Source: Bradyrhizobium diazoefficiens (GTDB taxonomy: Bacteria > Pseudomonadota > Alphaproteobacteria > Rhizobiales > Xanthobacteraceae). From it: DNA of 64,000 nucleotides. The stretch spans positions 3,311,501-3,375,500 of the forward strand of contig NZ_JAENXS010000001.1 of NCBI RefSeq assembly GCF_016612535.1, given 5' to 3'. This document shows positions 2,401 to 51,277 of this stretch, piece after piece. The stretch's first letter is position 1; every line of letters starts with the position of its first letter. Below the pieces are notes generated by a model. It saw only the letters and a list, made by a program, of their open reading frames with translations, ran no database searches and was not told the DNA's origin. The position numbers and the translations under genes were made by a program.

Positions 2401-2783
2401 TGAGCGATCAAAAGGCATTCCAGGCAGTGTCGCTCACTATCACGGTGATCGCCGGAGCGGCACTCATCGTCGCATGCACGATCCAGCTACGCGGACCGGA
2501 CAAAATCATGGGTTCGAAGCCATCGAGCATAGCGGCCAGCCGTCCCATGGAATCCGATCTCACCCGCTGCCGTACCGTGACGTCAGAGCATTCTCCGGCG
2601 TATCAGGATTGCCAGAGGATCTGGGCGGAGAACCGGCGCCGGTTCTTCCGTCCAGGAATGAGCTCGATCAGTCCCGCTGCCAACGATCGAGCCGGCTCGC
2701 CGGTGCTGTCGGCGCCGAAAGATCAGAGCCGAATGCCTCAAGGCGATTCCTCCGTCGCGTCACCCGAGGGAGGTAATCAATGA
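2400..2783 (+). CDS. trbK: TrbK-like protein (entry-exclusion type)
   Basis: A 127-aa protein with one N-terminal hydrophobic segment (about residues 8-26, containing ALIVACTI, which could be a lipobox-like Cys) and a polar C-terminal part. Position between trbJ and trbL and size fit the TrbK/TrbK-alt group linked to entry exclusion in rhizobial trb operons. Start and stop both overlap neighbours by 4 nt. The functional name rests on synteny more than on sequence. Confidence 0.75.
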   Translation: MSDQKAFQAVSLTITVIAGAALIVACTIQLRGPDKIMGSKPSSIAASRPMESDLTRCRTVTSEHSPAYQDCQRIWAENRRRFFRPGMSSISPAANDRAGSPVLSAPKDQSRMPQGDSSVASPEGGNQ

Positions 2784-4009
2784 CGGGCACGGGAATTATC
2801 GATCAGTTCCTCGAGACCTTCACCCGCTACATCGACAATGGCTTTGGGCTTCTTGGCGACGAGGTGGGTTATCTTGCGACAACACTGGCTGCGATCGACA
2901 TCACCCTGGCCGCCCTGTTCTGGAGCTGGGGCACGGATGAGGACATCGTCGCGCGGCTCGTCAAGAAAACCCTGTTCGTCGCTGTCTTCGCCTACCTGAT
3001 CGGCAATTGGAATCATCTCGCCCGTATCGTCTTCGAAAGCTTCGCCGGTCTCGGATTGAAGGCCTCAGGGACAGGCCTTTCGGCAGGCGATTTTGTTCAC
3101 CCCGGAAAAATCGCACAAGTCGGACTCGATGCCGGCCGGCCGATCCTGGATTCGATCTCGAACCTGATGGGCTACATCAGCTTTTTTGAGAACTTTGTCC
3201 AGATCGTCGTCCTGCTGTTCGCCTGGGCCGTCGTCCTGCTCGCCTTCTTCATTCTGGCGATCCAGCTCTTCGTCACGCTGATCGAGTTCAAGCTGACGAC
3301 GCTGGCAGGGTTCGTGCTGCTTCCGTTCGGCCTGTTCGGCAAGACGGCGTTTGCGGCCGAACGCGTCCTTGGCAATGTCGTGTCGTCCGGCATCAAGGTG
3401 CTGGTGCTGGCCGTGATCGTCGGTATCGGCTCGACCTTGTTTTCCCAGTTCACCTCCGGCTTCAATGGCGGTCAGCCGACAATCGAAGATGCCATGACTC
3501 TGGTCTTGGCCGCATTGTCGCTTTTGGGTCTTGGAATCTTTGGACCCGGAATCGCGAACGGACTGGTATCCGGTGGTCCCCAACTCGGAGCGGGCAGCGC
3601 GGTCGGTACGGGACTTGCGGCCGGCGGGATGGCTGCAGCAGGAGCCGGTCTGGCTGCCGGCGCTGTCGGCCTCGCCGGCGGAGCGATCGCAGGTGCGGCG
3701 CGGGGCGGCAGCGCGATCGCAAGCGGCGCGGCGGCCGCCTACCGGAGCGGCGGCATCGGTGGTGTTGCCGAGGCTGCTGCTTCCGCTTCTGTCAGTCCGC
3801 TCCGCAGAGCCTCCGCATCGATCCATAGCGGCAGCCAGTCGAGCGGCACGACCTCTGCCAGCTCGGGGGAAGGTCCGCCGGATTGGGCGCGGCGCATGAA
3901 GCGCGCGCAGACAATCAGCCATGGAGTTTCGGCGGCAACTCATGCCGTTCGGTCGGGAGACCATGGTGGAAGTGGCAGCTCGATCGATCTGTCCGATGGA
4001 GGGCGCTAG
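2780..4009 (+). CDS. trbL: TrbL, VirB6-like inner-membrane channel protein
   Basis: Polytopic membrane core of the conjugation channel. The product is 409 aa. It opens with a TrbL-type N-terminus (TGTGIIDQFLETF) and has about six hydrophobic segments up to residue 275. A Gly/Ala-rich, low-complexity region of about 70 residues follows, then a polar Ser-rich tail, the usual TrbL architecture. Start overlaps the trbK stop. The annotated end is immediately followed by another ATG. Confidence 0.93.
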   Translation: MTGTGIIDQFLETFTRYIDNGFGLLGDEVGYLATTLAAIDITLAALFWSWGTDEDIVARLVKKTLFVAVFAYLIGNWNHLARIVFESFAGLGLKASGTGLSAGDFVHPGKIAQVGLDAGRPILDSISNLMGYISFFENFVQIVVLLFAWAVVLLAFFILAIQLFVTLIEFKLTTLAGFVLLPFGLFGKTAFAAERVLGNVVSSGIKVLVLAVIVGIGSTLFSQFTSGFNGGQPTIEDAMTLVLAALSLLGLGIFGPGIANGLVSGGPQLGAGSAVGTGLAAGGMAAAGAGLAAGAVGLAGGAIAGAARGGSAIASGAAAAYRSGGIGGVAEAAASASVSPLRRASASIHSGSQSSGTTSASSGEGPPDWARRMKRAQTISHGVSAATHAVRSGDHGGSGSSIDLSDGGR

Positions 4010-4417
4010 ATGTCAAAGTGCCCGTTTGCTGAGAAGCTGCGCGAATATGGCCACAGGACTGACCAGCCAAGTTCAAGCGCGCGCCCTGGGGGGCGCGCCT
4101 GGCATGGCCCGGCCTGGCAAGCTCTGGTGCTGGCTTCTCAAGCACTCTCGTTGAGCCTTACGCCCGCGCTTCTCTGGCAGGCTACGCATGACCAGTCCGC
4201 CGCAGTGAGAGCGCCACTGCACGAAACGCAACAAGTGTTCGAGATGCCGACCATGCAGGATCGGCGGGACGCCCTCGTTACGCTGCCGCTCGGGCATTTG
4301 CTGCCTGACCTCCGCGGTTTGTGCTCAAGCGTTCGTAGACGGCAATGCAGGGCCTGCCGTGTCTCGCGTTGCCTGTGCGTGTTCAGACAGCTCGTGCGTG
4401 TCGAGCAAGCGACGTGA
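4010..4417 (+). CDS. unrecognised ORF between trbL and trbF
   Basis: A 135-codon frame whose ATG directly follows the trbL TAG. It has one hydrophobic stretch (about residues 40-58, LVLASQALSLSLTPALLW) and then a Cys/Arg-rich C-terminus that does not look like normal coding sequence. Most trb operons have trbL and trbF nearly adjacent, so these 484 nt are an insertion or the decayed remnant of an extra gene. No function is assigned, and the frame may not be translated. Confidence 0.3.
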   Translation: MSKCPFAEKLREYGHRTDQPSSSARPGGRAWHGPAWQALVLASQALSLSLTPALLWQATHDQSAAVRAPLHETQQVFEMPTMQDRRDALVTLPLGHLLPDLRGLCSSVRRRQCRACRVSRCLCVFRQLVRVEQAT

Positions 4418-4493
4418 TTGCGCCCCTCCGCACTCGTCGCTTGGCCAATGAGCAAAATGTAAGTCTCAATTCCGTTTCTTGGGGAAATGACTG

Positions 4494-5177
4494 ATGTTCA
4501 AGAGGTCTTCGGTTCACTACGGGCGAACGCCCGCGCCGGTGACGCCCTACCAGAAGGCGGCGCAAGCGTGGGACGAGCGCATCGGTTCGGCACGTGTGCA
4601 GGCCAAAAATTGGCGGCTGATGGCATTCAGCTGCCTGGCCCTCTCGTGTGGCCTCGCAGCAGGGCTGGCCTGGCAAGCCAGCCAAGGAACGATCACGCCG
4701 TGGGTCGTCGAAGTCGATCGTCTCGGCCAGGCGCAAAGAGTGGCTCCCGCGACAGCTGATTTCGAACCCAGCGATGCTCAGATTGCCTATCACTTGGCTC
4801 GCTTTATCGAGGACGTTCGCGGTCTGCCGGCAGATGGCATTGTCCTGCGCCAGAACTGGCTCAGGGCCTACGACTTCACCACCGACCGCGGGGCCGCTGC
4901 GCTCAACGAATACGCCAGGAGCAATGATCCCTTCGCAAGGCTCGGGAAGACGCAAGTCTCAGTCGAGGTCTCGAGCGTGATCCGCGCCTCAACGGAAAGC
5001 TTCCGTGTCGCCTGGGTCGAGCGCGGCTACGAGAACGGATCGCTTGGTTCAACCGAGCGCTGGACCGCCATTCTGACGATCGTCATTCAGCCGCCTCGCG
5101 ATGCCGATCGGTTGCGCAAGAATCCGCTCGGCGTCTACGTCAATGCAATCAGCTGGTCGAAGGAGCTCGGGCAATGA
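4494..5177 (+). CDS. trbF: TrbF, VirB8-like conjugal transfer protein
   Basis: Bitopic inner-membrane scaffold of the Trb secretion apparatus. The product is 227 aa with a short cytoplasmic N-terminus, one transmembrane segment (about residues 43-65), and a periplasmic VirB8-like NTF2 fold. Typical features are TPYQKAAQAWDERIG near residue 16, the PWVVEVD segment after the membrane span, and LRKNPLGVYVN near the end. Its TGA overlaps the trbG ATG. Confidence 0.93.
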   Translation: MFKRSSVHYGRTPAPVTPYQKAAQAWDERIGSARVQAKNWRLMAFSCLALSCGLAAGLAWQASQGTITPWVVEVDRLGQAQRVAPATADFEPSDAQIAYHLARFIEDVRGLPADGIVLRQNWLRAYDFTTDRGAAALNEYARSNDPFARLGKTQVSVEVSSVIRASTESFRVAWVERGYENGSLGSTERWTAILTIVIQPPRDADRLRKNPLGVYVNAISWSKELGQ

Positions 5178-6169
5178 AGCCGCCATCCTCTCAAGTGGCG
5201 ACCGGCGTCTCTCCAGGGGCATCGGCCAGGGCGGCCGTTTCAGTGCTCGCGGTCCTCGCGTGCATGCTTGGCGGCTGCTCGACCTATATTCCGCCCCAAA
5301 TCACCTATGACTCCGACGTGCCGCCAGTGCCGCCGGGACCAGCCGATGTCGATGATCGGAGCCGGCCACTTCACGTCCCGCCCGCCTGGAAGCCGGCGCT
5401 CGGCGGCAAATCGGGGACAAAGGAGGAAACCGAGCCGGTCGACAGGGTCGAAGCGGCCAACAGCGCAGCTCGCGTCCAGCCACGCAAAAGCGGGTATTTC
5501 AACGCCGCGCAGATCTACAGCTTCAGTCCCGGTGCCCTGTACCAGATCTACGCAGCGCCGGGTCAAATCACGGACATCGCGCTGGAAGAGGGCGAACAGC
5601 TGGTCGGGTCCGGCCCGATCGCGGCCGGTGACACGGTGCGTTGGGTCGTCGGTGACACCGAGAACGGAAGCGGGGACACCCGCCGCGTCCATGTCCTGGT
5701 CAAGCCGACGCGCGCGTCGATCGAAACGAACCTCGTCATCAACACGGATCGGCGCACCTATCTGATTGAGCTTCGTTCGCGCGAAAAGCCCTACATGCCG
5801 CTCGTTGCGTGGTACTACCCGCAAGATCGGCAGGGCAAAAGACAATCAGCACCTTTGACGCCTGCTTTGCCCGACATCGCGCAGCGCCGCTTCCGTTACC
5901 GTATCGAAGGTGACAACGCGCCCTGGCGTCCCATTGCGGCCTATGATGATGGTCGCAAGGTCTACATCGAATTTCCGCAAGGCATCGTACAGGGCGAAAT
6001 GCCGCCCCTGTTTGCCCTCGGCCCTGACGGCAAGACCGAGATCGTCAATTATCGGGCCTATGGCAATCTGCTGATTGTCGATCGGCTGTTCGCAGCCGCC
6101 GAACTTCGCCTCGGCGGAGAGCACCAGCAGAAGGTCAGAATTGTTCGGACCGACGGGAGCTCGACATGA
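5174..6169 (+). CDS. trbG: TrbG, VirB9-like outer-membrane-complex protein
   Basis: Periplasmic/outer-membrane part of the conjugation channel that pairs with TrbI and a small lipoprotein. The product is 331 aa with an export signal ending in LGGCSTYIPP, a lipobox with Cys near residue 36, so it may itself be a lipoprotein. The C-terminal half has VirB9-type motifs (RTYLIELRS, PYMPLVAWYYP, and the YRAYGNLLIVDRLF ending). No separate trbH is seen. The 4-nt overlaps on both sides indicate one operon. Confidence 0.93.
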   Translation: MKPPSSQVATGVSPGASARAAVSVLAVLACMLGGCSTYIPPQITYDSDVPPVPPGPADVDDRSRPLHVPPAWKPALGGKSGTKEETEPVDRVEAANSAARVQPRKSGYFNAAQIYSFSPGALYQIYAAPGQITDIALEEGEQLVGSGPIAAGDTVRWVVGDTENGSGDTRRVHVLVKPTRASIETNLVINTDRRTYLIELRSREKPYMPLVAWYYPQDRQGKRQSAPLTPALPDIAQRRFRYRIEGDNAPWRPIAAYDDGRKVYIEFPQGIVQGEMPPLFALGPDGKTEIVNYRAYGNLLIVDRLFAAAELRLGGEHQQKVRIVRTDGSST

Positions 6170-8597: not shown

Positions 8598-9227
8598 CTA
8601 CGCAGCTTTCAGCGCCGGCTCCCAGAGCACAGGTGAGCGGAGTGTTCCGGTGTCGCGGACCCGGGATAGTGCGGCCGCTGAAATTTCGAGATAGCCGGCA
8701 ACGGCTTGGGTGTTTCCCAATGTCCTTGCTTGGCCGACCCGCCGCAGAGGCCACCCGGCGCGACGCAAGATGCGCTCCATCCGGGCGTCGGTCACCGTGA
8801 TGATTTCGGTGAGCTGCCTCGAAAGGCCGAATTCGATCATGCCAGCGAAGAGCTCGTAGGTCGCGCTGGTCAGCCCGCGCATTGTTCCCCGCGCTTCAGC
8901 GTCAACATCCAGCGCGAAACGGCTGCTTTCCCAGACCGAATGATTCGCGTTAAAGGGCTGTCCATCGAGCAGCACAGGGAAGGTATCGCGCAACATCGTC
9001 GGTCCGGTAGATGGAAGCAGCCGTACGCAGCCCTGAACGCTATAGTTGCTCGATCGCTGAATCAGGTAGACAGGACCGAGTGCATCGAATTCATCGACTT
9101 CCATGTCCCCGCTGGTCTGAACGTCCCATGCGAGTCGTTCCTTGAAAACCCTGTATCTAAGTCGGTGCATCTCACAAAGCTCTTCAGCAAAGGCTCCATA
9201 GAATTGCTGTGTAATAATCTGCATCAT
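8598..9227 (-). CDS. traI: acyl-homoserine-lactone synthase (TraI/LuxI family)
   Basis: Makes an N-acyl homoserine lactone signal from S-adenosylmethionine and acyl-ACP. The 209-aa product has the LuxI invariant pattern: R-YRVF-KERLAWD near residues 24-34, the acidic motif EVDEFDALG, and RLLPSTGPTML. The frame continues upstream, but the ATG at 9227 is chosen because GGAGG lies 8 nt before it and the protein then begins at the family's usual position. Its place beside trb genes suggests control of transfer. An 18-bp imperfect dyad 60 nt upstream is a candidate operator. Confidence 0.93.
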   Translation of the reverse strand: MMQIITQQFYGAFAEELCEMHRLRYRVFKERLAWDVQTSGDMEVDEFDALGPVYLIQRSSNYSVQGCVRLLPSTGPTMLRDTFPVLLDGQPFNANHSVWESSRFALDVDAEARGTMRGLTSATYELFAGMIEFGLSRQLTEIITVTDARMERILRRAGWPLRRVGQARTLGNTQAVAGYLEISAAALSRVRDTGTLRSPVLWEPALKAA

Positions 9228-9286
9228 CGATTGTGCCTCCAAAGCCGCAGGGCGGGTATTGAAGGGGAATTGCTGGGGATGTGCAG

Positions 9287-9304
9287 CCTCCTCAGTTAAG
9301 GAGG
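9287..9304. promoter_or_regulatory. candidate lux/tra-box dyad upstream of the AHL synthase
   Basis: An 18-bp imperfect inverted repeat, CCTCCTCAGTTAAGGAGG, in which 14 of 18 bases match the reverse complement. Length and symmetry match LuxR/TraR operators, and it lies about 60 bp upstream of the AHL synthase start on the minus strand. The half-site differs from the Agrobacterium tra box, so assignment is by position and symmetry only. Confidence 0.45.
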
Positions 9305-9507
9305 GTGTGATATCGAGAGCCGACGCACGCATCCGGCAACGACCCGGATTGGCAGGACCGAGCCGCGCAAGCATATTTGGTCGGTCTTCGCCCGTAGCGT
9401 CGCCGAAAATCCTCAGACCACTATCGACGCGTTTTTGCTGTCGGCCTATATGGAGTGGCTAGAACTCGGAAACGAGACCTAGAGTTTGAGGGTACATTCT
9501 ATCGAGG

Positions 9508-13083: not shown

Positions 13084-14523
13084 TCAAGCGGCTCTGTCTT
13101 GGTCATCCGGATAAAGTTGATTCATGGCGACCTCCTTCGTTCGACGTGCGGCTCGCTTCTCTGCAAGGGCTTGACGCATTTCTTCGATGTCAATTTCGCG
13201 ATTGATACTGGCGGACTCCGCATCAAACCGAGAGACGTCGTTTGCACGAAGCAACTCTTGGGCTGCATTTTCGAAGTCCACTGCGGTGCGTACAGCGTAA
13301 AGAGTTGGTGTTGAGAAAAACACCTTGCCAAGTACCGCGCTCACTTCAACGGCCATGATCACGAGAGTGGTCCAGAACGTTACCCTTGCGACCGCCGGCC
13401 GTTCTTTCAAAACTTCAAGTGCCTCGACACGCGCCAGAAATCCATGAGCTTTCGCCGCATAGCCCGGTCTCTGTTGTGCAATGGCGATTAGTTTTACCTC
13501 CCGATCGCGAATTGCCTGGTCACGCCTTTTGTCGAGTTCGTCCCGTCGAGATCGAACAGACGCCATTGCCTCATCGAGCGTCTTCAAGCCGCCGACGACG
13601 AGCTCATTTGCCTTTTCACTTCGGCGATCGCGCTTTTCACGCATCTCTGCAATCGTAGACTGTAGGCGCGTCATTTCCCCCCGAAGCCGCTCCGATTCGA
13701 CGGAGGCCAGTTGCGCCTTTTCGGTTGCATTCCTGTAGAGATTGCCCTCGCCGCGCTTGCCCGAGTTTTCCGTCGACTCCTTGACTCCGTTTCGTTCGTT
13801 GATCGCATCCCCCTGACGCCGCACCATCTCTGCGTCCGCGGCACGCTTTGCGGCAGACAGTTGGTTTAGGCGCTCTGTCAGGACCTCAACTTCTTGGTTT
13901 GGCTCGGTTTCGAGGAGAAATTTGCGTCGTAATGCGACTTCTTGTTCGCGGAGTTCGGAGAGTTCATGAGTTTGGCGCGATATTTCGGTCGCCATCGATT
14001 CGACGCCGGCGTCATATTCCGCTTCAATCTCTTGGAACAGCTTGGAGTTAGCCGTTCGATAGTCTGCATCGATCTGGCGTTCAATATCGGCGCCAAACAA
14101 ACGCAGCTCGAAAAAAGTGGCGAACGCGAACGCGATGGTGACAGAGAGTAGCAATCGTAGAGATACGGTAGCGGGGCGTTTGACCTTCGTCCAAAGCAGG
14201 TTCTTGGCGTTCCCGTAGCCGCGGTCGCGCGCTAACTCTAGCCCGTGGTGGTAGAAGTCCGATTGGACGATCTGAATGTCGACCAGCAGCACCACGCAGG
14301 CGGTGACAAAGGCCATTGCTAGTACGACGATATCTGAGCTTGAGGAGTCTCCGAAGCCGATGAGAAGCGAGGTTCCGAAGATCACGAAGAGAAATACTGA
14401 CGAAAGCAAAAGCTGCAAACCGATCCTCACGGCGAATTGTCCGTCACCGAGCTGACATTTGCGTAGACGTTCATGGTCGACGCCGGCAAGATTGCAAAGC
14501 AAGCGGAAGGTACGGTCAAACAT
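13084..14523 (-). CDS. DUF4407-like membrane/coiled-coil protein
   Basis: A 479-aa protein with three hydrophobic segments in the N-terminal third (about residues 33-57, 67-87, 122-143), a long charged coiled-coil (about 165-370), and a fourth hydrophobic segment (about 392-412). This is the architecture of DUF4407 proteins. AAGGAG precedes the ATG. It follows a cytoplasmic coiled-coil gene by 72 nt, so the two may form a membrane-tethered complex. Family function is not known to me; the call is from architecture. Confidence 0.7.
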   Translation of the reverse strand: MFDRTFRLLCNLAGVDHERLRKCQLGDGQFAVRIGLQLLLSSVFLFVIFGTSLLIGFGDSSSSDIVVLAMAFVTACVVLLVDIQIVQSDFYHHGLELARDRGYGNAKNLLWTKVKRPATVSLRLLLSVTIAFAFATFFELRLFGADIERQIDADYRTANSKLFQEIEAEYDAGVESMATEISRQTHELSELREQEVALRRKFLLETEPNQEVEVLTERLNQLSAAKRAADAEMVRRQGDAINERNGVKESTENSGKRGEGNLYRNATEKAQLASVESERLRGEMTRLQSTIAEMREKRDRRSEKANELVVGGLKTLDEAMASVRSRRDELDKRRDQAIRDREVKLIAIAQQRPGYAAKAHGFLARVEALEVLKERPAVARVTFWTTLVIMAVEVSAVLGKVFFSTPTLYAVRTAVDFENAAQELLRANDVSRFDAESASINREIDIEEMRQALAEKRAARRTKEVAMNQLYPDDQDRAA

Positions 14524-14595
14524 GTTTATTCTCCTTAGTGTTGCATTTGTATGGATGGATCAGAACAAATAGGCTTCAAGAGCGCACCACACGAC

Positions 14596-15252
14596 CTAAC
14601 CCGACGAGTGGCCGGGTACCGCCCTCTCGCGAAAGAGAGCCAGTGTCCTCTCGATCTGTTGCGCATGGTTACGGAGGATGATCTCGACCTTGGCGTTTAA
14701 ATTGTTGCCGAAGATTCGAGCCCACGTTTCGATATTCTCTCGTTCGACTATGTAGCTTTGTTCGTCCAGCCTACCGGTTGACTTCCAATGCTCAAGTCGA
14801 TCAAGCCTCGACTTCTTCTGTTCGTGACCTGCGAGGCCCTGATCTAGGGCAAGGTCGATCAATTGGCGCTCAAATTCGGTCGATCGCTCTGCGATTTCCT
14901 TCTCCATGCGGGATCCTTCGCGCATCGATTCGGCGAATAAGCGCTTCTTGTCCGCATCGAGCTCAAGGCTAATTTGGAAGATGATTTTCTCTTTCTGAAC
15001 GGCCAGCATTTGAACAATCAATTCGCCGGCTATTCGTCGCGTTTCGTCTCGAGACGCTCGATCGACGGCCAGTCGGTCGAAGAAACCGAGGTTGTTTCGC
15101 ATCTTGCCGACCTGTTGATTGCTCGTACCAAACGTCACGGCGACTTCCTCTTTCCGGACCGGCAGCCCAGGTGACGAGAAAAAGCTGTGACCGCCCGCGC
15201 TGGAGTTACCTTGCGCAACACTCCAAAAGGTCATCGCTGATTTGTCGGACAT
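14596..15252 (-). CDS. unrecognised coiled-coil protein
   Basis: A 218-aa soluble protein. The N-terminal 45 residues are Ser/Gly-rich and low complexity; the remainder is almost all helix with heptad-like Leu/Glu/Lys spacing (for example IFQISLELDADKKRLFAES). The ATG at 15252 is preceded by GGAG; an upstream in-frame ATG would add a basic stretch that looks non-coding. It lies between an OB-fold-like and a DUF4407-like gene on the same strand. No family recognised. Confidence 0.6.
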   Translation of the reverse strand: MSDKSAMTFWSVAQGNSSAGGHSFFSSPGLPVRKEEVAVTFGTSNQQVGKMRNNLGFFDRLAVDRASRDETRRIAGELIVQMLAVQKEKIIFQISLELDADKKRLFAESMREGSRMEKEIAERSTEFERQLIDLALDQGLAGHEQKKSRLDRLEHWKSTGRLDEQSYIVERENIETWARIFGNNLNAKVEIILRNHAQQIERTLALFRERAVPGHSSG

Positions 15253-15328
15253 GGAGATCTCCGCGTAGATCGAAGGGTTTCGACGCCGGTGTTGACGCCG
15301 TGGTGGCAGCAAGATTTGCTGCAAATAC

Positions 15329-15709
15329 CTATTGTTGGATGAGGACGGGCAGATCGTAGGATCCGAGCTGAATCGCGCTCTTTAATTGTCCGACGACCGC
15401 TATCTCTGCGCCGACTGGTGGAGCATTGTTGCTGCTGCTTACAACCATAATGGCTGATCCAACGGGATCTTGAATTCGGAAAATGCTGTATCCGAGCAGA
15501 CCAACCCGCCCCTGCGACGTAACGGTTCCTGACACCTTGATTGTGCTGTTGGCGTAAGCATCTTTGTTCGCCAATAGCGTTGCGATTGGCACCGTAGGCG
15601 CCATTACGCCACGTATGGCTGTGGGCTTAATTCGATTGCTCGCGAAAAAAGCGGCCGTCGCCAAGGGGGCAATAATAATCAGGATCGTGGAAAGCGCTCG
15701 CCTAAACAT
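15329..15709 (-). CDS. small membrane-anchored OB-fold-like protein
   Basis: A 126-aa protein with an N-terminal signal anchor (about residues 5-23) and a beta-rich domain: TIKVSGTVTSQGRVG, then FRIQDPVGSAIMVVSS, then PPVGAEIAVVGQL. This is the usual pattern of bacterial OB-fold domains (V-x-G-x-V ... L-x-D-x-x-G-x-I-x-V ... G-x-x-V-x-V-x-G). AAGGAG precedes the ATG. Possibly ligand- or nucleic-acid-binding outside the membrane; the role is unknown. Confidence 0.6.
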   Translation of the reverse strand: MFRRALSTILIIIAPLATAAFFASNRIKPTAIRGVMAPTVPIATLLANKDAYANSTIKVSGTVTSQGRVGLLGYSIFRIQDPVGSAIMVVSSSNNAPPVGAEIAVVGQLKSAIQLGSYDLPVLIQQ

Positions 15710-15780
15710 GTCTGTTCTCCTTTACGATCAGAAGTCGGGACGGATTTGACGGGTCGATTACGGACTCTCAGCTTGCTGGA

Positions 15781-16368
15781 TTAAGCAGCTTGGCTGAGGC
15801 TCAGCTCTCGAATGACACCGAAGGGGCCAATGCGACCAGGCAAGTCAGACGGCGGCAGCATAAGATAGTCGATCCAGACGACGCGATCGGCAGCTTGGGT
15901 TAACTTCTTCGAAGCGCCTTGCCGAAGTCCCCAGACCTCAACTGCGATGCCGCACGCTTGGATCGCCCGCATCACGTTGAGATAGTCGCCATCATGGGTC
16001 ACGAGGATGACCCTCTCAAATCCCGCGAACGCGTACTCAATAGCTTCAAGCATCGCGACCCGATCTACATTTTCACGAACAGCGATAGGCTTGAGCCCTA
16101 TAGCGCGGATCATGTGCACCGCGCGCGCCGGGAAGTCGCGATTTCGGCAGAAGGATCCATCGCAAACCCGCCGCTCGCGCAGCGCCGCGGCAAGGGCAAA
16201 ATAGTTGAACGATCGCTGGGGCCGCGCACGTCCCGTCTTCTTGTCAATTCCTCGGTGAAGCAAACTATCCGTATCTATTACAATGGCCGTGCGGCAGTGT
16301 GTGTCATTCAGCGCGCTGAGTTCCGCCTTGTATGCCGGGGCAGTATTGATCTGCAGGGACGTTTGCAT
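15781..16368 (-). CDS. NYN-domain (PIN-like) putative ribonuclease
   Basis: A 195-aa protein with the LabA/NYN pattern: an early acidic strand TAIVIDTDSLLHRG (Asp pair near residues 31-33), then VDRVAMLEAIEYAF, then VILVTHDGDYLNVMRAIQACGIAVEVWG, whose D-G-D after a hydrophobic strand is the NYN metal-binding motif, and a final DRVVWIDYL. AAGGAGGA precedes the ATG at 16368, so the long upstream extension is not coding. It heads the leftward five-gene set and is divergent from the ECF operon. Confidence 0.7.
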   Translation of the reverse strand: MQTSLQINTAPAYKAELSALNDTHCRTAIVIDTDSLLHRGIDKKTGRARPQRSFNYFALAAALRERRVCDGSFCRNRDFPARAVHMIRAIGLKPIAVRENVDRVAMLEAIEYAFAGFERVILVTHDGDYLNVMRAIQACGIAVEVWGLRQGASKKLTQAADRVVWIDYLMLPPSDLPGRIGPFGVIRELSLSQAA

Positions 16369-16659
16369 TTGGGCTCCTCCTTGCATTCGCGGCTGATTCC
16401 GCGAGGAGCCTTCGCAATTAAACTGTTGTCTGCCGTTTACATTAATTTCTTCAGCGTCCCGAAATTGCTTCCCAATTTTGCAAATCGTCGGAGTTGGCCG
16501 ATCGTGATGAGTGGACTGGCGGCTCAATTCTCCGCGCCGGGACATCGCTCGGAATCGGTACACAGAAACTGTGGGCCGAATCCTGCGCTCGAAATGACCG
16601 TGTTTTCAGGTAGTTGGGAGCGGTATTATGCGCCTAGACGCCATCCTTTGGAGACTAAA

Positions 16660-17298
16660 ATGTCCGAGCCCGCCTCAACTTCGGCCATCCCTCTTGCCCG
16701 CGAAAGCGAGACCTTTCTCTATGCGATCGCGGGGCTTTGCGTCGCAATCGACGTCGGTCTTGGTGCAATTGTGAATTTGGTCAAGTTGCCCGTCTATCTT
16801 GACGCAGTTGGAACGATCGCTTTTGCTTTGCTCGCAGGTCGCATGGGCTTCAGAGGCTTCCTACTTTCCGCCTTCGTAGGAGCGGCGGCATTCGTATTGA
16901 CGGGGCTCGTCTTCAATCCCGTGGTGTTTTGGTTCATTCCCACTCAAGTCGCGATTGCCGCCTATTCGTTTTATGTTGCGCGTCCCTTGATTGGCGGTTT
17001 CGTCTCGGAGGTGAGATTTGGCCTAAAGCAAATTCTACTGATGGTCGCCGTCGGCGTTGGGTTAGGGATAGTCGCGGGGGCCGTCAGTGCTCCCATCATT
17101 GCTTATGTGTTTGGCGGTATCACCGGAGCCGGAGCGTCATTAATTGTCGCAGCGCTGTTGAAGACCGGGGCGAATTTGTTTCAGTCAGTGCTTGCTTCGG
17201 GTTTCGCTTCCGAACCCATCGACAAGACCATCCAGCTATTCGTGGCCGGCGCACTGGTAAGAGCTACGCCGTCACGCGTGCGGCGCTTGTTTATTTGA
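16660..17298 (+). CDS. ECF transporter substrate-binding (S) component
   Basis: A 212-aa integral membrane protein with five or six hydrophobic helices. The first reads IAGLCVAIDVGLGAIVN and the second begins VYLDAVGTIAFALLAGRMGF, the Y-LD-x-x-G pattern seen in S components of the ECF vitamin transporter family. The ATG at 16660 follows TTTGGAG; upstream codons belong to non-coding sequence. The next two genes encode the T and A components, so this is a complete dedicated-type transporter. Substrate is not readable from sequence. Confidence 0.8.
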   Translation: MSEPASTSAIPLARESETFLYAIAGLCVAIDVGLGAIVNLVKLPVYLDAVGTIAFALLAGRMGFRGFLLSAFVGAAAFVLTGLVFNPVVFWFIPTQVAIAAYSFYVARPLIGGFVSEVRFGLKQILLMVAVGVGLGIVAGAVSAPIIAYVFGGITGAGASLIVAALLKTGANLFQSVLASGFASEPIDKTIQLFVAGALVRATPSRVRRLFI

Positions 17299-18014
17299 GA
17301 CGCAATGTGCAAGCACATCCGTTCGGTAGGCTCTTTCTCGCAATTGCCGCACTCTGCGCGTCCCTTAACTCGGGGCGCGTAGCGCTCGCGGCGACTGCGG
17401 CTTGCGCGATCCTGGGCTTTTTTCTGTTAAGACAACAACGATTGCTCGTTCGTTACATCGTTCTGGTCTCACCATTTGTCTTTACTTCTGCCGTGCTTTG
17501 GACCCTGGTACTTTTCGATTTTGGCAGGCCGGATCCTTCGGCAACCTTGACGGCGATTTTCGATTCTAATTCCAGATTTTTTCTTTTAGTTCGAATGCTG
17601 GTGACGACGTCGGCGATAGTGCTAGCATTTGGCACGGTTCCAGACGGTGAATTCGATACGGTCCTGCGCAAACTAGGGTTGCCCCAGGGTCTCGCCATCA
17701 TATTCGCTTCGGGATTATCGTTGGCTACAACCGTGCGAGAGTCGTTCGAACGCAGCGTCGTTGCACTTCGAGCTCAAGGGCTGCTCGGTCCGTCTTTGGG
17801 TTCGAAGGTCAGCTCGTTGGGAAAGTTGATAGGTCTGACGTGGGTTTCGACCCTAAGCACATCTCTCGGACGAGCCGAGTCGAAGTGGAACGGAAATGCA
17901 TTCCTCGGCGCCATGCGGGCGCACGGGATTGATGTGCTGAGTATATCCAGAGCGGATACAATTATCGCAGCCATAATTGCCGGAGCTCTCATTATTGTCT
18001 CGGTGGGTCTGTGA
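17295..18014 (+). CDS. ECF transporter transmembrane (T) component
   Basis: About 239 aa, five to six hydrophobic helices. The C-terminal half carries EcfT features: FGTVPDGEFDTVLRKLGLPQGLAIIFASGL and ESFERSVVALRAQGL, the latter matching the A-x-R-A-x-G coupling motif. No ATG exists at the beginning; the TTG at 17295 overlaps the S-component stop (TTGA), and a GTG at 17307 is an alternative. Translation is probably coupled to the upstream gene. Membrane partner of the ATPase that starts 3 nt downstream. Confidence 0.8.
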   Translation: MRRNVQAHPFGRLFLAIAALCASLNSGRVALAATAACAILGFFLLRQQRLLVRYIVLVSPFVFTSAVLWTLVLFDFGRPDPSATLTAIFDSNSRFFLLVRMLVTTSAIVLAFGTVPDGEFDTVLRKLGLPQGLAIIFASGLSLATTVRESFERSVVALRAQGLLGPSLGSKVSSLGKLIGLTWVSTLSTSLGRAESKWNGNAFLGAMRAHGIDVLSISRADTIIAAIIAGALIIVSVGL

Positions 18015-18017
18015 CCT

Positions 18018-19238
18018 ATGACCGTCGTTTTATATGAAGGTCCCAATTTTTCAGGCCGGTCCGACGCGTTACGAAATTTCGCCTGGAACGCAGGTACGAC
18101 CTCAGGCAGCGGGCAGTATTTGAATTCATTGCTCGACAACAATTTGTCGGGACTAGCTCGATCTGTGCGGGGGGAGCTTCGTCTTCATCGCGCGCAAAAG
18201 CTTGGACGAATCGAATCGAGCACCGCAATACAGGAGTTGATTGGATACCTGTCGCCGGACCAAACTATCATGTCCCTGTCGGGCGGCGAGACGGTCCGCC
18301 TCTTGATTGCGTGCGCTATCGCATTGCAGCCAGAGCGCATCGCAATCGACGGTCTCTTGGAGCAGTTGGATCGTCGGTCGCGGCCAGCAATCGGCGATGT
18401 ACTATCGTCTTCCAAGCTAGGCATAGAGTTTCATGTCTCCGATAACGACCCTCAGGCTATAACGACGTTATTCGATAGGCATATCAAATTTGAACGGGGC
18501 GCAAACTCAGTCGACTTAAACTCTCGACTATTGGCTCTGTCCGAAAGGGTCTCGCAGCAAAGGGTGTCTGCTCCCTCCCTAGGGCTTGAGGGTTTGTGCT
18601 TCAGCTATCCGAGCTCTAATCGCCCAGTGTTTGATCGGGCAGACTACTCGTTCCAGCCCGGTAGGCCATACATCCTCAAAGCACCAAACGGTGCAGGGAA
18701 ATCCACGCTGGCACGTCTGCTTTGCGGTGTCCTCGCACCACAAAGTGGTCGACTGGATGTCGCCGGCCAATCTTTCTCGCCCCATAGAAGCCGAGACAAC
18801 TTGATATTCTATGCCTTTCAAAATCCGTTGGATCAAATCTTTGGTACAACAACCCGCGCCTATTTGGACGCTCTGTCGAATGTTGCGGCTCAAAGGAAGA
18901 CGTTTCTAGCCGGCAAAATCGGACTCACAACGGACGATGTATTAGCGGGATTGGGCATAACCCCATTCGCCGAAGCTGAACCCTTTGAATTGCCTTTCGT
19001 GGTTGCCAAGCGGCTGTCTCTGGCTGGAGCTTTGTTGGCACGATCGCCTTGGATTTTCCTGGATGAACCGGCGCTGAGCTCGGACGCTGACGGGCGCGCG
19101 GGCTTGAGGCATTTGGTTCAAGCGCTCTGCGAGGCTGGTTTCGGGACAATCATTGTATCGCACGGCGAAGAATTTGATGGACTGCCTCACTCCACACCAG
19201 TGACAATACAGGGTGGCAAGATTAGGGAGGGAGTCTGA
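18018..19238 (+). CDS. ECF transporter double ATPase (A component), asymmetric
   Basis: A 406-aa fusion of two ABC ATPase domains that energises the ECF transporter. Domain 1 (about 1-175) has a degenerate Walker A GPNFSGRS (Lys replaced by Arg, residue 14) and a Walker B IAIDG lacking the catalytic Glu, yet keeps the signature LSGGE (87-91). Domain 2 (about 188-406) has intact Walker A APNGAGKST (222-230), Q-loop FQNPLDQIFG and Walker B WIFLDEPA, but its signature is replaced by ELPFV. The domains are complementary, predicting one active composite ATP site. Starts 3 nt after the T gene. Confidence 0.88.
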   Translation: MTVVLYEGPNFSGRSDALRNFAWNAGTTSGSGQYLNSLLDNNLSGLARSVRGELRLHRAQKLGRIESSTAIQELIGYLSPDQTIMSLSGGETVRLLIACAIALQPERIAIDGLLEQLDRRSRPAIGDVLSSSKLGIEFHVSDNDPQAITTLFDRHIKFERGANSVDLNSRLLALSERVSQQRVSAPSLGLEGLCFSYPSSNRPVFDRADYSFQPGRPYILKAPNGAGKSTLARLLCGVLAPQSGRLDVAGQSFSPHRSRDNLIFYAFQNPLDQIFGTTTRAYLDALSNVAAQRKTFLAGKIGLTTDDVLAGLGITPFAEAEPFELPFVVAKRLSLAGALLARSPWIFLDEPALSSDADGRAGLRHLVQALCEAGFGTIIVSHGEEFDGLPHSTPVTIQGGKIREGV

Positions 19239-19240
19239 AC

Positions 19241-20524
19241 ATGATCGATGTTGCGGTGCAATCCATAAGATGGGGGGACGTGGGTGAGAGGCGCAATTCG
19301 CTGTCGGAGCGCTTTTTGCCTGCTTTTGACGTGCTCAAGGAATTTGCGAACGAGCCGGTTCATCTTGTAAGCGCGCCTTACGGAACGAGGTTGATCCGCC
19401 ATGGAATGTTCAACTGGCCGGCGTTGGGTCCTGACGGCGGCATCCGCGACGAGTACAGAGGTGGCCTAGTTCCGCTTGGTCTCGTCATTTCGGGTGCAAT
19501 CGAGCTGTATACGATAAGCGCATCGACGGTGACAGTCCGACGTCACGATAGAGGCGTTCAGCGAACTGTGCCAATGTTTATGTTGGGCGCCGGAGAGTTC
19601 TTCGGTCTATTTGAGACGTTTGCAACATCGTTCTCTCAGCCGGAACTGAACGGAGACGCCGGCGGGACCACGTTAGTGGTGCTGCCGCACATCGGTGACA
19701 AGGAAAAGTTCTCTACTCTAAAGAACACTGATACGGGAATGTATCGACAGGGTAAGAACAACAATCAGAAATTTTCTATCAAGAACTCAGATATTGATCA
19801 CCTTCAAATCATCGAAGGAAGCAGTCTTGCTTTTGGTCAACTGTTTTCAGGTCTGCTTGCACAGATCGATTGTCCTTGGCGCGCACAACTAATTCTGTTT
19901 CCGACGCGTTTCGTCGATGGTATCCGCCGGAAGGCAGCGGCCCATCAAGCCCTACTCGAGGCGACTATTGCTCAACTGAGCCTGACGTGCGTTCGAATGG
20001 GCTTAGAGAAGGAATTGGACAAGAAGGTTCGGCAAACCGAGAAAAATCACGTTCTCGGGGTCAGCATGATCGCTCACGGCTATCGTCCCGGCTTTGTCGG
20101 CGTCGTGGAATCGGAACTCGATGAAGCTGTGCTGCCCTCAAAGCACATCCATCAGCTAATGTACGACCTGGACGTGTTCGAACCTATCACTTTGGCTCAG
20201 AGCGGTAGCGCCGCGACCGGCTCGCGATTCTTTCCTTCGATCTTCCGACCGTCTTTCGCACTTGAACCATCGCTATACTTCTTGAAGCGCCCCCATTTTC
20301 TTCCCTCAAATGACAGATCGTCTGTTCAGGAAAAATTGGACGAGATAATTTCACAATGTCACGAGCACACGAAGCGCAAAGCGGGCTTCCGGTCTTTAAA
20401 CGGACAGCAATTGCAGACGATGCTCAAAGAGCAACACCCCGGAGCCGAACAAGCCAAGATTTGTCTTGGAAGTTCGGCATTTCTCACTGGGGGCTGCATT
20501 GCGATCACGCCGATTAACGATTGA
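19241..20524 (+). CDS. unknown protein of the ECF operon
   Basis: A 427-aa soluble protein with no family I recognise. Residues about 80-130 (GLVISGAIELYTI ... VPMFMLGAGEFFGLFETF) look like a small jelly-roll or cyclic-nucleotide-binding-like element. The second half contains an unusual basic stretch GKNNNQKFSIKNS. It starts 2 nt after the ATPase stop and is followed after 22 nt by the SAH-hydrolase-like gene, so it is almost certainly co-transcribed and part of the same pathway. Catalytic motifs are not apparent. Confidence 0.6.
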   Translation: MIDVAVQSIRWGDVGERRNSLSERFLPAFDVLKEFANEPVHLVSAPYGTRLIRHGMFNWPALGPDGGIRDEYRGGLVPLGLVISGAIELYTISASTVTVRRHDRGVQRTVPMFMLGAGEFFGLFETFATSFSQPELNGDAGGTTLVVLPHIGDKEKFSTLKNTDTGMYRQGKNNNQKFSIKNSDIDHLQIIEGSSLAFGQLFSGLLAQIDCPWRAQLILFPTRFVDGIRRKAAAHQALLEATIAQLSLTCVRMGLEKELDKKVRQTEKNHVLGVSMIAHGYRPGFVGVVESELDEAVLPSKHIHQLMYDLDVFEPITLAQSGSAATGSRFFPSIFRPSFALEPSLYFLKRPHFLPSNDRSSVQEKLDEIISQCHEHTKRKAGFRSLNGQQLQTMLKEQHPGAEQAKICLGSSAFLTGGCIAITPIND

Positions 20525-20546
20525 CACGGTTCAGCAAAGAGTGACG

Positions 20547-21908
20547 ATGAATCGGTCTAACAAAAGTAATCAATCAGCGGAGAGCGCTACTCGATCTGCT
20601 GTAGAACAGATGCCAATTGTCGTTCATCTCGTCGAATCCCTTAAGGCCGACGGCTTTCGTTTTGACGGAAGTACGCTTCTTTTCGGCGTGCAGCATCTCA
20701 TGCAGCAGTCGCTCGTGCTTTGCTGGGCATTGAACGAGCTTGGACTGAGCTATGATCGGATTGCGTTAGCAGGAAAGCCATACTCCACAAACCCGGATGT
20801 AGTGGATCAGCTCCATTCATTCGGCGTGACGGTGCAGGAGCCGAGAGACTACGATCTAACGAGAACCCAATCGCACGAATTGATTGATGATATTCGTCGG
20901 CTTTCGGTACGATTCTCCAGCACGAAGATGAAGTATCTTAATCCAACTGCTCTTGTGATTGACGACGGCGGCCAGGCGCTTTCTCACTTCGTGCAATTCG
21001 TTCCTCTCCCATATCGTCTCGCCGGTGTCGAGCAAACGGCTAGCGGGTTTTGGCAACCAGGATTTCACACAGTTTCGTTTCCTGTCGTGGACGTTGGCGG
21101 CAGTGCGGTTAAGCGGATTTGCGAGCCAGCCATAGTCGCGGATGCTGCCATGCAAAGAATCAGGAATTTGATCGATACTGCGACATTAGGGCGGCGAGCT
21201 GGGATCATCGGCCTCGGCTATATTGGTAGCGCCCTCTACGATGAACTTCTGAAGTACGGGGTTGAAGCCCTTCGATTTGATCTACGGTCCAGCGATTCAT
21301 TTACAAGAGGCGCGGATCTGCAGGCTCTCTTCAATCGATGTGATGTGATATTTGGATGTACCGGCGTAGATGTGACTCGAGATTTGATATCGAGCGGTCA
21401 AGATATTGTGGGGGGTAAGGCAGAGAAACTGTTGGTCTCGCTCTCATCGGGAGATGATGAATTCTTTACGCTCAAGAACGAATTGCTGGCTAATTCGAAG
21501 CAATCTCGCAGCTACCGCATGGGGCAAATTCCTGATGTTTGGGGAGAGCGTCGGGGTACTCGCTTTCGAATCTTACGCAATGGGTTCCCAATCAATTTTG
21601 ATAACAGTGCCGTGTCCGCTCCGCTGTACACGATTCAAGGAACAATTGCGGCGCTAATCGGTGCATCGTGCCAAGCATTTCAGATCGCTCGACGATCTGG
21701 TGTCGGAGACAATCTGGCGCAAAGGACAATGCTAGATTCGAATTTCCAGCGCTGGCTGTATCGCAGCTGGCGACCGTATTTGGGTTCCGCTCAAGACGAG
21801 CGAATGTTAGATCTAGATGAAATTGGTCGGCTTTCAGCTGAGCGGACGCAACCGAAAAGTGCGCAAGTCGCTCCTGCGTTTGGCCTGTGGACTGACGCTC
21901 ATCTGTGA
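20547..21908 (+). CDS. divergent S-adenosylhomocysteine-hydrolase-like protein
   Basis: A 453-aa protein aligned by eye to AHCY: VQHLMQQS (H50) for the substrate His, GKPYSTN for the S/T-Q-D loop, VIDDGG (D139-D140), GVEQTASG for the SEETTTG loop, SAVKR (K189) for the catalytic Lys, and the NAD-binding GLGYIG (222-227). Known catalytic residues are only partly kept: the second Glu of the EE pair is Gln, the D-N after the Lys is E-P, and the late GH and H-x-x-x-G-R motifs are not found. It probably binds NAD and a nucleoside-like ligand but may not hydrolyse SAH. Last gene of the ECF operon. Confidence 0.72.
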   Translation: MNRSNKSNQSAESATRSAVEQMPIVVHLVESLKADGFRFDGSTLLFGVQHLMQQSLVLCWALNELGLSYDRIALAGKPYSTNPDVVDQLHSFGVTVQEPRDYDLTRTQSHELIDDIRRLSVRFSSTKMKYLNPTALVIDDGGQALSHFVQFVPLPYRLAGVEQTASGFWQPGFHTVSFPVVDVGGSAVKRICEPAIVADAAMQRIRNLIDTATLGRRAGIIGLGYIGSALYDELLKYGVEALRFDLRSSDSFTRGADLQALFNRCDVIFGCTGVDVTRDLISSGQDIVGGKAEKLLVSLSSGDDEFFTLKNELLANSKQSRSYRMGQIPDVWGERRGTRFRILRNGFPINFDNSAVSAPLYTIQGTIAALIGASCQAFQIARRSGVGDNLAQRTMLDSNFQRWLYRSWRPYLGSAQDERMLDLDEIGRLSAERTQPKSAQVAPAFGLWTDAHL

Positions 21909-41713: not shown

Positions 41714-44700
41714 ATGATGGAATTCGTTGACCTTGATCGTTATTTCGTACCGCTGAACAAAGATCAGGAACCAAGTCTCGATATTGGCCGCTTCTGGGGG
41801 CCACGCGCAGCAGGCTGGCTCAATTGGGAAGAGCTTCGCCGACGCCGACGTGTCATCTTGTTGGCTGAAGCCGCCAGCGGCAAAACGGAAGAATTCCGGC
41901 ATCAGCGCGAAACCTTGCGCGCGGACGGCAACCCCGCCTTCTTTCTACGCATCGAGGAGCTTGCCGAAAACGCAGTTGAAGCGATCCTCGATGGCGCAAG
42001 CGTCGAGCTTTTTCAATCATGGCTGAGCGGCTCCGGCGAAGCCTGGTTCTTTCTCGATGCCGTCGATGAAGCGCATCTGAACAGAAAGAGCTTCGATTCA
42101 GCGCTCAGACACTTCGCAAGAGACCTCGGAGCCGGCCTCGAGCGGGCGCACGTTTACGTCTCTTGCCGCGTAACCGACTGGCGGGGCGCAGAAGATCGCA
42201 CAATCTTTTCGCGCTATCTCCCCGCCTGGAACCAGCCGATAATCGCACCTGTCGCGAAACCGGACGATTATAGCGCCCTTCTTGATCCAATCTTCAAGGA
42301 CAAGCGATCTCCGCGCGACGATCAGGCCGCCAAAGGCGAGAAACTGCTCAATGAACTTCTCGTCGTGCAGCTTGTACCGCTTTCTCCAGAGCAGTACCGA
42401 AAGCTCGCAACGAAGCGGGGCGTCCCTGACGTCGATGCGTTCGTCGCTGCGATCGCAAGACATGGCCTCGAAGCATCTACCGAGCGCTCTCGGGATTTAC
42501 TCGACCTCGCCGACTACTGGAAAACATATAAGAAGTTCGGCACGTTTGCCAAAATGCTGGAACACGGCATCACCGGCAAACTCGGCGAACCAAATCCACA
42601 TCGCGCGGACAACGAAGCCCTTTCACCGGAAGAGGCGCGTGAAGGCGCCGAACGCTTGGCAGCAGCCCTAACCCTGGGCAAGTCCTTCACGCTACGAGCG
42701 CCAGGAGACGACTCCGACCCGAGCCTCGCGTCGGGCGCACTCAACCCGAGGGAGATTCTTCCCGAGTGGACCGACGCCAAGCGGAACGCTTTGCTGCGGC
42801 GCGCCATCTTTGCGCCAGCCACCTATGGCCGCGTACGATTTCATCACCGTTCGACCCAAGAATATCTTGCCGCAGGCTGGCTCGATCGCCTGATCCGCAA
42901 TAACTGCCCGCGTACTGAGATATTCAATCTTCTCTTTACAGAGCGCTACGGTGTCGAAACTGTCGTGCCTTCGCTGCGAGCCGAAGCGGCTTGGTTATCA
43001 CTCCGGCAGCCTGATATTCGCGATGAAGTTATTCGCCGAGAACCGTTGATCCTCGTAACGCAGGGCGATCCCGGCTCGCTCCCCTTGCCGGTTCGGGAGC
43101 AGCTCCTGATGCAATACGCCTCCAAGCAGGCCACGGGCGACATTTCCGATGACCGCCTCGATGCTCGCGAGCTCTGGATGTTCGCCGATGAGCAGCTCGC
43201 ACCAACGGTGGTGAAGGCTTGGCAGGCTAACACGCGGGAACAGTTCCGCTACGACTTGTTACGGCTTATTCGCGAGGGCGGAATTAAAGGTGCCTCCAGC
43301 CTGGCGCGCGCGGTTGCGCTGGACAAGAAGGCCGATGACAACCACCGCATTGTCGCCGCGAAAGCAGCCGAAGCCTGCGATGATCGAGCGACGTTAACTG
43401 CGCTATCCAACGAGCTCGTTAGGGATGCGGCGAAAGCGAGCCCTGGCCTGGCCGCATCGTTGTCGCTGATCCTCTATCCCAGCTTTCTTTCCACAGCGGA
43501 CTTGCTGAAAATCATTGCCAAATCAAAGAATCCAGCGGAACATGCGGCCGAGGATTTCGGCTACGAACTTGAAAAGCTGTATGACAAGGCTCCGAACGCC
43601 GCAGCCCGTGTCGCCCTCCTTGGCGGTCTCGCCGATCTCTGCCTGTCCAAACCTTTCGTGGACGAGCATCATCGCATCGCGAAGAACTTCGGCGAAATTG
43701 CCAAACATCTGTACAACGTCGCGCGCCGCGAAGTCGCCGGGTTAGCCAAAGTCGAACCGCCGACCCACATTGTGCGTCTGCTCGTCGCCGCTGAACGCGG
43801 CGGCCGCGATAGCTACAGCAGCGAAGCAAAGCCATCGCTTCACGAACTGGTGCGAAAAAATCCACCCTTGAATCGTGCTCTCTTCTGGGCAGACGTTGCC
43901 GAGCATCGCGCGAATACGAAGGGCCCAATTGTCGATTATTGGCACGTGCATTTCGGCAGCGGCAGCGAAGCCTTGTGGGGCTTCACAGAGGCCGACATTT
44001 CGTGGCTTTACGACGACCTGAAATCGCGCCCCAACATCGAAGACAAGCAAGTCGCCCTCAGCGTAATATTGAACCTCCTCCATCGTGCCGGTCGCTTGGC
44101 GGCGGAGGCAGGCACCATACGCGCTGCAATCGGGAAGGAAGCAGTGCTGCTCGACGCGCTGCAAAAAGCGCTTGAACCGCCGGCCGAGGGCGTCACGATA
44201 CGCGCACATCGCTTAAGGCGCGAGGCGCATGATCGTGAGGCCGAAGCCCAAACCAAGGCTGATCGGAAATCCTGGATCAAGTTCCAGAACGATCTCCTGA
44301 AGGACCCAACCGTCCTATCCGATCCCAAAAATCTCAAGTCCTGGAAGACAGGCGTTTTCCGCCTCCACTATCTTACAAATTGGCTTCGGAGGCGTACCGG
44401 TTCAGACATACCGCGAGCGGTTCTCGAATGGCGGCTTCTGGAAGAAGGCTTCAATCGCACCATTGCAGAAGCCTACCGCGACGGTATGAGGCGGCTTTGG
44501 CGCTCCATTGCGCCTGTGCGGCCACGTCGAAATCGCGACGGGACGATCACCAAGAAGTCGCCATCGATTCTTGCTTTTGCAGGCATCGGACTCGAAGCTG
44601 CGGAAGATGCCGACTGGGCACTTCGTCTTACCGAAAAGGAAGCAGTTATTGCGGCTCGGCATGGTTGCCGCGCCGAAGAAGGCTGTCCCGATTGGATTGA

Positions 44701-50006: not shown

Positions 50007-50942
50007 TCAGAAGTAGCCTTCCCGCTTCTTTTTCTCCATCGAGGCCGCTTCATCGGTATCGATCAGCCGCCCCTGACGCTCGGAACGTGTCGCAACCTGC
50101 ATTTCCGCAACGATGTCTTTGATGGTGGCGGCGTCGGACTCGATGGCGCCGCTCAGCGGATAGCAACCAAGTGTGCGGAAACGCATCATCTTAAGCTCCG
50201 GTGTCTCGTTCGGAGCCAAAGGCAGGCGCTCGTCATCCACCATGATCAGCGCGCCATTGCGATGGACCACCCAGCGCATTTTTGCGAAATAAAGCGGAAC
50301 TACGGGAATGTTTTCCAGCATGATGTATTCCCAGACATCGAGCTCCGTCCAATTTGAAATGGCAAACACGCGCATTGTCTCGCCTTTGCGGCTGCGGGTG
50401 TTGAAGAGATTCCACAGCTCCGGCCTCTGGTTGCGCGGGTCCCAGACATGTCCATGCGAACGGAAGGAGAAGATGCGCTCCTTCGCCCGGCTCCTTTCCT
50501 CGTCGCGCCGGGCGCCACCGAACGCTGCGTCGAAGCCGTAGAGGTCGAGCGCCTGCTTGAGTGCGTCTGTCTTCATCACCTGGGTATGCAGCGTCGATCC
50601 GGAATCGATCGGGTTGATGCCGCGCTTGATCCCGTCCCGGTTCACATGAACGATCAGGTCGATGCCGAGACGTTGGGCCGTCTCGTCGCGAAAGCTGATC
50701 ATCTCGCGAAACTTCCAGGTTGTGTCGACATGCAACAGCGGAAACGGGACCTTCGCCGGATAGAAGGCCTTCTGCGCCAGGTGCAGCATGACGCTCGAAT
50801 CCTTGCCGCTCGAATAAAGCATTACGGGCTTTCGAAATGCGGCAACGACTTCGCGCATAATCTCGATGGACTCGGCCTCGAGCCGCCGCAGGTGCCGCGG
50901 CAGCGTGCGAGTCTGTGGCTTGGTGATCTCTTGTGCGTTCAT
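50007..50942 (-). CDS. nodP: NodP/CysD, sulfate adenylyltransferase subunit 2
   Basis: PP-loop ATPase that adenylates sulfate together with NodQ. The 311-aa product has [16 protein letters not shown] at the N-terminus, the PP-loop [43 protein letters not shown] and a C-terminal basic tail (KKKREGYF). The ATG at 50942 matches family starts; an in-frame ATG at 51008 would add 22 atypical residues. A nod box about 335 bp upstream points away from this gene. Confidence 0.9.
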
Positions 50943-51277
50943 TTTAACCAACTGCGGGTCCCCGCGCGGCAAGTCGCCGTTTCGATAATCTAGCTTGCCA
51001 TAGCGCATGAGCCGCTTTCAGAGTCCGTCACGGTGAACAGAAATCACGCGCGAATATTCGCGCGGGCTTCTCGAAAGTCATCCAGGCCGCGTTCCTTGCG
51101 GACGTGCAGCTTTCGTTTCCGTATCCCGCCAGCGCAACGGTTGAGAACGCAGAGAGATGGGAACAGATCGCATCTGCAATGACCACCTCACTCCCGTGCT
51201 TGAAGGCCGTTTGTTATGAGATGAGGAGATCAAGATCAACTCCATTTCAAGACCGAGACCCTGGAGCGGTTCTCTCT

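Follow-up and report, generated by a model that had tools for sequence, protein, structure and literature searches.

A rare and mobile five-gene set joins an ECF importer to a predicted CRP-like protein and a divergent SAH-hydrolase-superfamily protein

The stretch of DNA analysed here, 64 kb in length and called the window throughout, carries five open reading frames on the + strand between positions 16660 and 21908. All five are open, and re-examining them reproduced the layout first described for this DNA, including the spacings of 2 nt and 22 nt that precede the last two genes:

16660..17298, + strand: ECF transporter S component, a substrate-binding membrane protein of 212 aa; ATG start; match to NCBIfam ECF_S_CD3073 below cut-off
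17295..18014, + strand: ECF transporter T component of about 239 aa; TTG start (uncertain), overlapping the S stop; weak CbiQ match
18018..19238, + strand: ABC ATPase of the ECF module, with two units fused into one 406-aa protein; PF00005 match
19241..20524, + strand: U427, a 427-aa protein with a predicted CRP-like N-terminal fold, beginning 2 nt past the ATPase
20547..21908, + strand: AHL, a divergent SAH-hydrolase-superfamily protein of 453 aa with an NAD site; ATG start, 22 nt past U427

An Rfam search of the 64-kb window returned no match, and we found no published description of the five-gene set in the open literature as judged by titles and the beginnings of abstracts.

GC content drops to 0.52-0.55 at 12-22 kb, most of the first 38 kb being near 0.60, and is equally low at 38-42 kb. 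Conjugal transfer genes (TrbL/VirB6, VirB8 and CagX) and a LuxI-type autoinducer synthase lie nearby (window 2780-6169 and 8598-9374), and the window is thus probably part of an integrative conjugative element or a comparable element. Among 60 relatives U427 was found in one, its own genome, and a wider search recovered it again in its own genome only (1 of 299). Based on the low GC, the nearby conjugal genes and the presence of U427 in 1 of 60 relatives, we infer that these are accessory genes, probably acquired by conjugation. Just before the operon, a low-GC segment on the minus strand (window 13084-16563) encodes a DUF4407 protein and an NYN-domain protein. Elsewhere in the window are a 1501-aa frame with no Pfam match at E 1e-5 (41714-46219) and an APS kinase/EF-Tu-like GTPase fusion of the NodQ/CysNC type (48105-51008); the latter is accompanied on the same strand by a 333-aa frame, possibly NodP, and the two hint at a symbiosis region.

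The first three genes were predicted to form an ECF module, and both their family matches and the joint encoding of S, T and two ATPase units agree with this assignment. The S component matched NCBIfam ECF_S_CD3073 with an E-value of 4.2e-21 and had no match in the Pfam search; its 75.4 bits fall under the cut-off of 180 bits that marks a CD3073 equivalog. The T component matched CbiQ weakly (21.9 bits, cut-off 111.8), and the ATPase matched PF00005 above its cut-off (2e-18) as well as cbiO and ECF_ATPase, both under cut-off.

AHL fell under curated cut-offs in a single-sequence family search. Searched against the PDB, an AHL profile of 68 rows (33 of 41 other P homologs, 34 of 42 AHL loci and the window) found human AHCY-like 3 and 2 as its best matches (E 3.5e-21 and 6.3e-21), followed by a bacterial SAH hydrolase (2.7e-20). 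The window protein has GLGYIG at 222-227 and K189, carries Q163 at the second Glu of the SAH-hydrolase EETTTG motif, E193-P194 at the Asp-Asn pair and Ser301 at the GHF histidine, and lacks both the C-terminal tail and the later GHP histidine, which we take to be His353. The alignment thus confirmed the residues on which the original prediction had called the protein divergent: a kept NAD site and K189, Q for one Glu, E-P for D-N and no late His motifs. Across the family, His50, Asp139, Thr164, Lys189 and GxGxxG are kept in 66-68 of the 68 rows, and Q163 is found in 56 of 68 rows, E193 in 67 and S301 in 67. In SAH hydrolase numbering, the positions of Thr57, Glu156, Asp190, Asn191, His301 and His353 are changed, with Leu or Met at Thr57 in 60 of 68 rows and mostly Pro, Ser or Ala at Asn191. 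AHL has the overall fold and NAD site of an SAH hydrolase and lacks the equivalents of Glu156, Asp190, His301 and Thr57; for the roles of these four residues and His353 in SAH hydrolase we follow PMC4647836.

The original prediction also depended on AHL not grouping with ordinary SAH hydrolases. In a tree of 70 rows built with a quick method (the window, 21 of 41 P homologs, all 42 loci except L024 and L042, and 8 SAH hydrolases), the 8 SAH hydrolases were split from AHL by a branch of length 3.42 with an SH-aLRT of 100. Together, tree and residues rule out that AHL is an ordinary SAH hydrolase. The genome that carries the window encodes an ordinary SAH hydrolase as well; of 13 other AHL genomes tested, 10 had an SAH-hydrolase match and 3 had none, so that AHL could stand in for the enzyme in these three. 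Such replacement would suit a helper of the methyl cycle, in which the substrate hydrolysed by AHL is SAH, or an analogue of it, made by a linked methyltransferase. Several neighbourhoods are consistent with this idea: in L025 a single 966-aa protein carries a methyltransferase domain (L025:10910-11707) behind U427-AHL, methyltransferase-type genes lie no more than two genes away from AHL in L008, L009, L013, L014, L020 and two Streptomyces plasmids, and a SAM synthetase adjoins L028. We nevertheless regard it as improbable, as there is no methyltransferase among the window's five genes, the adenine- and 5'-side residues of AHL are replaced, and the ordinary enzyme is already encoded here and in most of the other AHL genomes tested. 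Two Streptomyces plasmids (L075 and L132) share genes for a GNAT protein, an AHL relative, a 155-aa-type protein, a methyltransferase, a phosphoribosyltransferase and a HAD protein, a group that looks like a biosynthetic cluster.

U427 was originally listed as an unknown, and it is indeed without a curated family: searches against Pfam and NCBIfam gave nothing near a cut-off, its halves had no Pfam match at E 2, and PDB sequences yielded no relevant match. It is not featureless, however, as structure prediction gives its N-terminal part a CRP/cyclic-nucleotide-binding-domain fold, and we describe this part as having a predicted CRP-like fold. At the sequence level, PF00027 reached a best E of 0.034, below cut-off, in 1 of 18 members of the U427 family, and hhalign against a CRP profile (16 proteins out of 29 own-genome matches) gave probabilities of 10 and 1.4 in the two directions. 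With respect to a DNA-binding winged helix as in CRP/FNR regulators, the superpositions of some CRP chains run on through U427's C-terminal part only at an rmsd of 4.4-5.2. Candidate relationships to the partner protein of Legionella and Coxiella AHL relatives, a hybrid histidine kinase (hhalign probability 0.1), to a cyclase-like/PycTM protein and to a neighbour in L018 were not supported.

When the AHL family profile was run against species genomes, 42 loci were found; a first contig scan with U427 alone as query had returned nothing. Co-occurrence of all five genes elsewhere had been put forward as a check, and the order S, T, ATPase, U427, AHL recurs in four other loci (L010, L025, L027 and L036), which rules out chance adjacency. 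Loci with this order span Bacteroidota, Pseudomonadota and Verrucomicrobiota. In these four loci the S protein is 40-44% identical to that of the window (38-55% among all five), the T protein holds the same place at 17-20% identity to the window T, and the ATPase, fused in all five loci, is 31-34% identical. Such a contrast between S (38-55%) and T (17-20%) is what conservation of a single ligand would predict. We conclude that the five genes are a genuine set that is rare, mobile and conserved across phyla.

The link between U427 and AHL extends further than the importer. U427 adjoins or is fused with AHL in 12 of 42 loci (L002, L007, L010, L013, L014, L019, L022, L025, L027, L031, L036 and L043; L013 and L014 are near-copies), and in L025 and L027 the two form one protein, each fusion matching a U427 profile built without them (E 1.8e-6 and 4.3e-6). 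U427 and AHL distances correlated with r 0.80 over 13 pairs, a value reached in none of 2000 permutations although shared ancestry alone can give such an r; three of these pairs (P0005/P0046, P0010/P0048 and P0034/P0050) were joined only by contigs of equal length, which suggests that they are linked on the same contigs. The five ECF-bearing rows are scattered in the AHL tree (5 changes), clustering no more than with shuffled labels. ECF genes accompany AHL in only 4 of the 42 loci, which argues that AHL can play its role without import. Contig edges cut off several of the loci, and some partners may have escaped notice there. A class-wide AHL profile search at E 1e-3 was swamped by NAD-domain matches and was not used for counts; it gave only two strong full-length matches, to the own gene and to L045. 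Around the Verrucomicrobiales genome, a search at phylum level gave 2 of 288 genomes, the known one and G756, which carries a further AHL-profile match (G756:C41:1838-2947, E 6.7e-22). AHL relatives were also sought in viral contigs, where 43 pattern matches were found and none was confirmed.

We examined relatives of the S component for indications of its ligand. The five AHL-linked S proteins form a single clade against 13 other S proteins (support 100/97), and searches for this clade in 130, 127 and 3 genomes found the known locus only, while other S relatives beyond those known occurred in 2 of 299 and 5 of 247 genomes. Among 6 plasmid S relatives inspected out of 18 matches, 3 adjoin a nucleoside hydrolase, 1 lies near a nucleoside deoxyribosyltransferase and 2 adjoin a PPC-domain protein. 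Among 7 chromosomal relatives, 4 adjoin putative pyruvate dehydrogenase subunit genes (assigned by eye from protein starts) and 2 a PPC-domain gene. The original prediction of a dedicated uptake-and-conversion module for a nucleoside-type molecule is thus upheld in part: the recurring set and a non-ordinary AHL support the module, but the neighbours of related S components disagree, and we reject a nucleoside as the proven substrate. AHL's fold points toward a nucleoside-type molecule.

Our preferred reading, close to but a little short of an even call, is that the five genes are a horizontally acquired module for the import, sensing and conversion of one specific small molecule. As inferred from its family, the ECF transporter would import this molecule via its dedicated S component. 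AHL, whose core is kept in sequence, would bind NAD+ and oxidise a ring hydroxyl of a ribosyl-type substrate, allowing elimination or addition at neighbouring carbons as in SAH hydrolase; the substrate would differ from SAH in base and 5' group. Judging from the fusions, U427 may be AHL's ligand-binding partner, its predicted CRP-like domain sensing substrate or product and controlling AHL or the operon. Identifying the S ligand would at once suggest the AHL substrate. A mobile and patchy distribution, and a fold that could bind adenosine-like inhibitors, would also suit a set that imports and inactivates a competitor's nucleoside antibiotic or SAH-hydrolase inhibitor. Importing the compound through a dedicated transporter would be a strange path to resistance, though, and the five include no known resistance gene; we think this account slightly less plausible even than a methyl-cycle role.

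Uptake and conversion may be half the story, because AHL relatives repeatedly pair with signalling proteins. A hybrid-histidine-kinase-type protein lies less than 400 bp from AHL in 9 of 42 loci (L003, L004, L006, L009, L011, L015, L021, L023 and L028), including Legionella, Coxiella-type and other bacteria; the L004 protein has PAS, HisKA, HATPase, receiver and Hpt domains. In two loci (L030:8743-11809 and L035:8104-11071), AHL directly follows a protein that combines a weak cyclase-like N-terminus with a Pycsar TM effector domain, and a gene of weak HIT-type similarity lies alongside. An EamA-type transporter occurs in L032, L033 and L041 (by clustering, with Pfam support for the L033 member), joined by a short-chain dehydrogenase in L033 and L041 (by eye), and both are annotated beside AHL on a Simkania plasmid. 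These kinase, cyclase-like/PycTM and EamA partners, together with the methyltransferases, raise the alternative that AHL makes or destroys a nucleoside-type signal, which U427, or elsewhere a sensor kinase or cyclase, reads and the ECF transporter retrieves from outside; the 12 of 42 loci in which U427 adjoins AHL or is fused to it also speak for this. However, 8 of 10 rows labelled HK fall in one clade of the AHL tree, so the kinase linkage represents few independent cases, and the cyclase assignment is weak (PF00211 matches one of the two proteins at E 0.028 and the other not at all). We consider this alternative unlikely overall, though a serious one. The same doubt applies to its general form, in which the proteins of the AHL clade would supply the enzyme for an undescribed family of small-molecule signalling systems, producing or removing a nucleoside-type signal that is 3'-oxidised or 5'-altered, with a lineage-specific partner (CRP-fold U427, PAS hybrid kinase or cyclase-like/PycTM protein) to read it and the ECF transporter as its importer in one branch. 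If true, it would reveal an undescribed nucleoside-type signal.

The Pycsar-type TM neighbour in L030 and L035 and the patchy, mobile distribution could also indicate that U427-AHL is a two-part abortive system for anti-phage defence. This is very improbable: U427 has no match among PADLOC models, AHL reached only E 0.0081 to an unrelated model, and defence fits poorly with an importer. The analysis identifies a separate SAH-hydrolase-superfamily clade with its catalytic core kept and its substrate residues replaced, tied across phyla by gene order and fusion to a predicted CRP-fold family without a curated family match and to a matching ECF S subfamily.

Several known systems resemble parts of this set. 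The closest to Pycsar are L030 and L035, where an AHL relative lies directly downstream of the cyclase-like/PycTM protein, but the cyclase part is only weakly detected there and the window has no Pycsar-type neighbour. With CRP/FNR regulators and other cyclic-nucleotide-binding domains U427 has its predicted N-terminal fold in common, whereas it differs from CRP/FNR regulators in lacking a curated family match, in its extra C-terminal part and in its fusion to an enzyme in two loci. ECF transporters with their own T and A components and the CD3073-like S family likewise encode S, T and paired ATPases from a single operon; the window S belongs to a separate clade, and its 75 bits compare with a CD3073 cut-off of 180. 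Compared to AHCY/SAHH (including archaeal 7r3a) and AHCY-like 2 and 3, AHL keeps the whole fold and NAD site along with the equivalents of SAHH His55, the DDGG aspartates, Thr157 and Lys186, but has Gln for Glu156, Glu for Asp190, mostly Pro, Ser or Ala for Asn191, Ser for His301 and mostly Leu or Met for Thr57, has neither GHP histidine nor C-terminal tail, and forms a separate clade.
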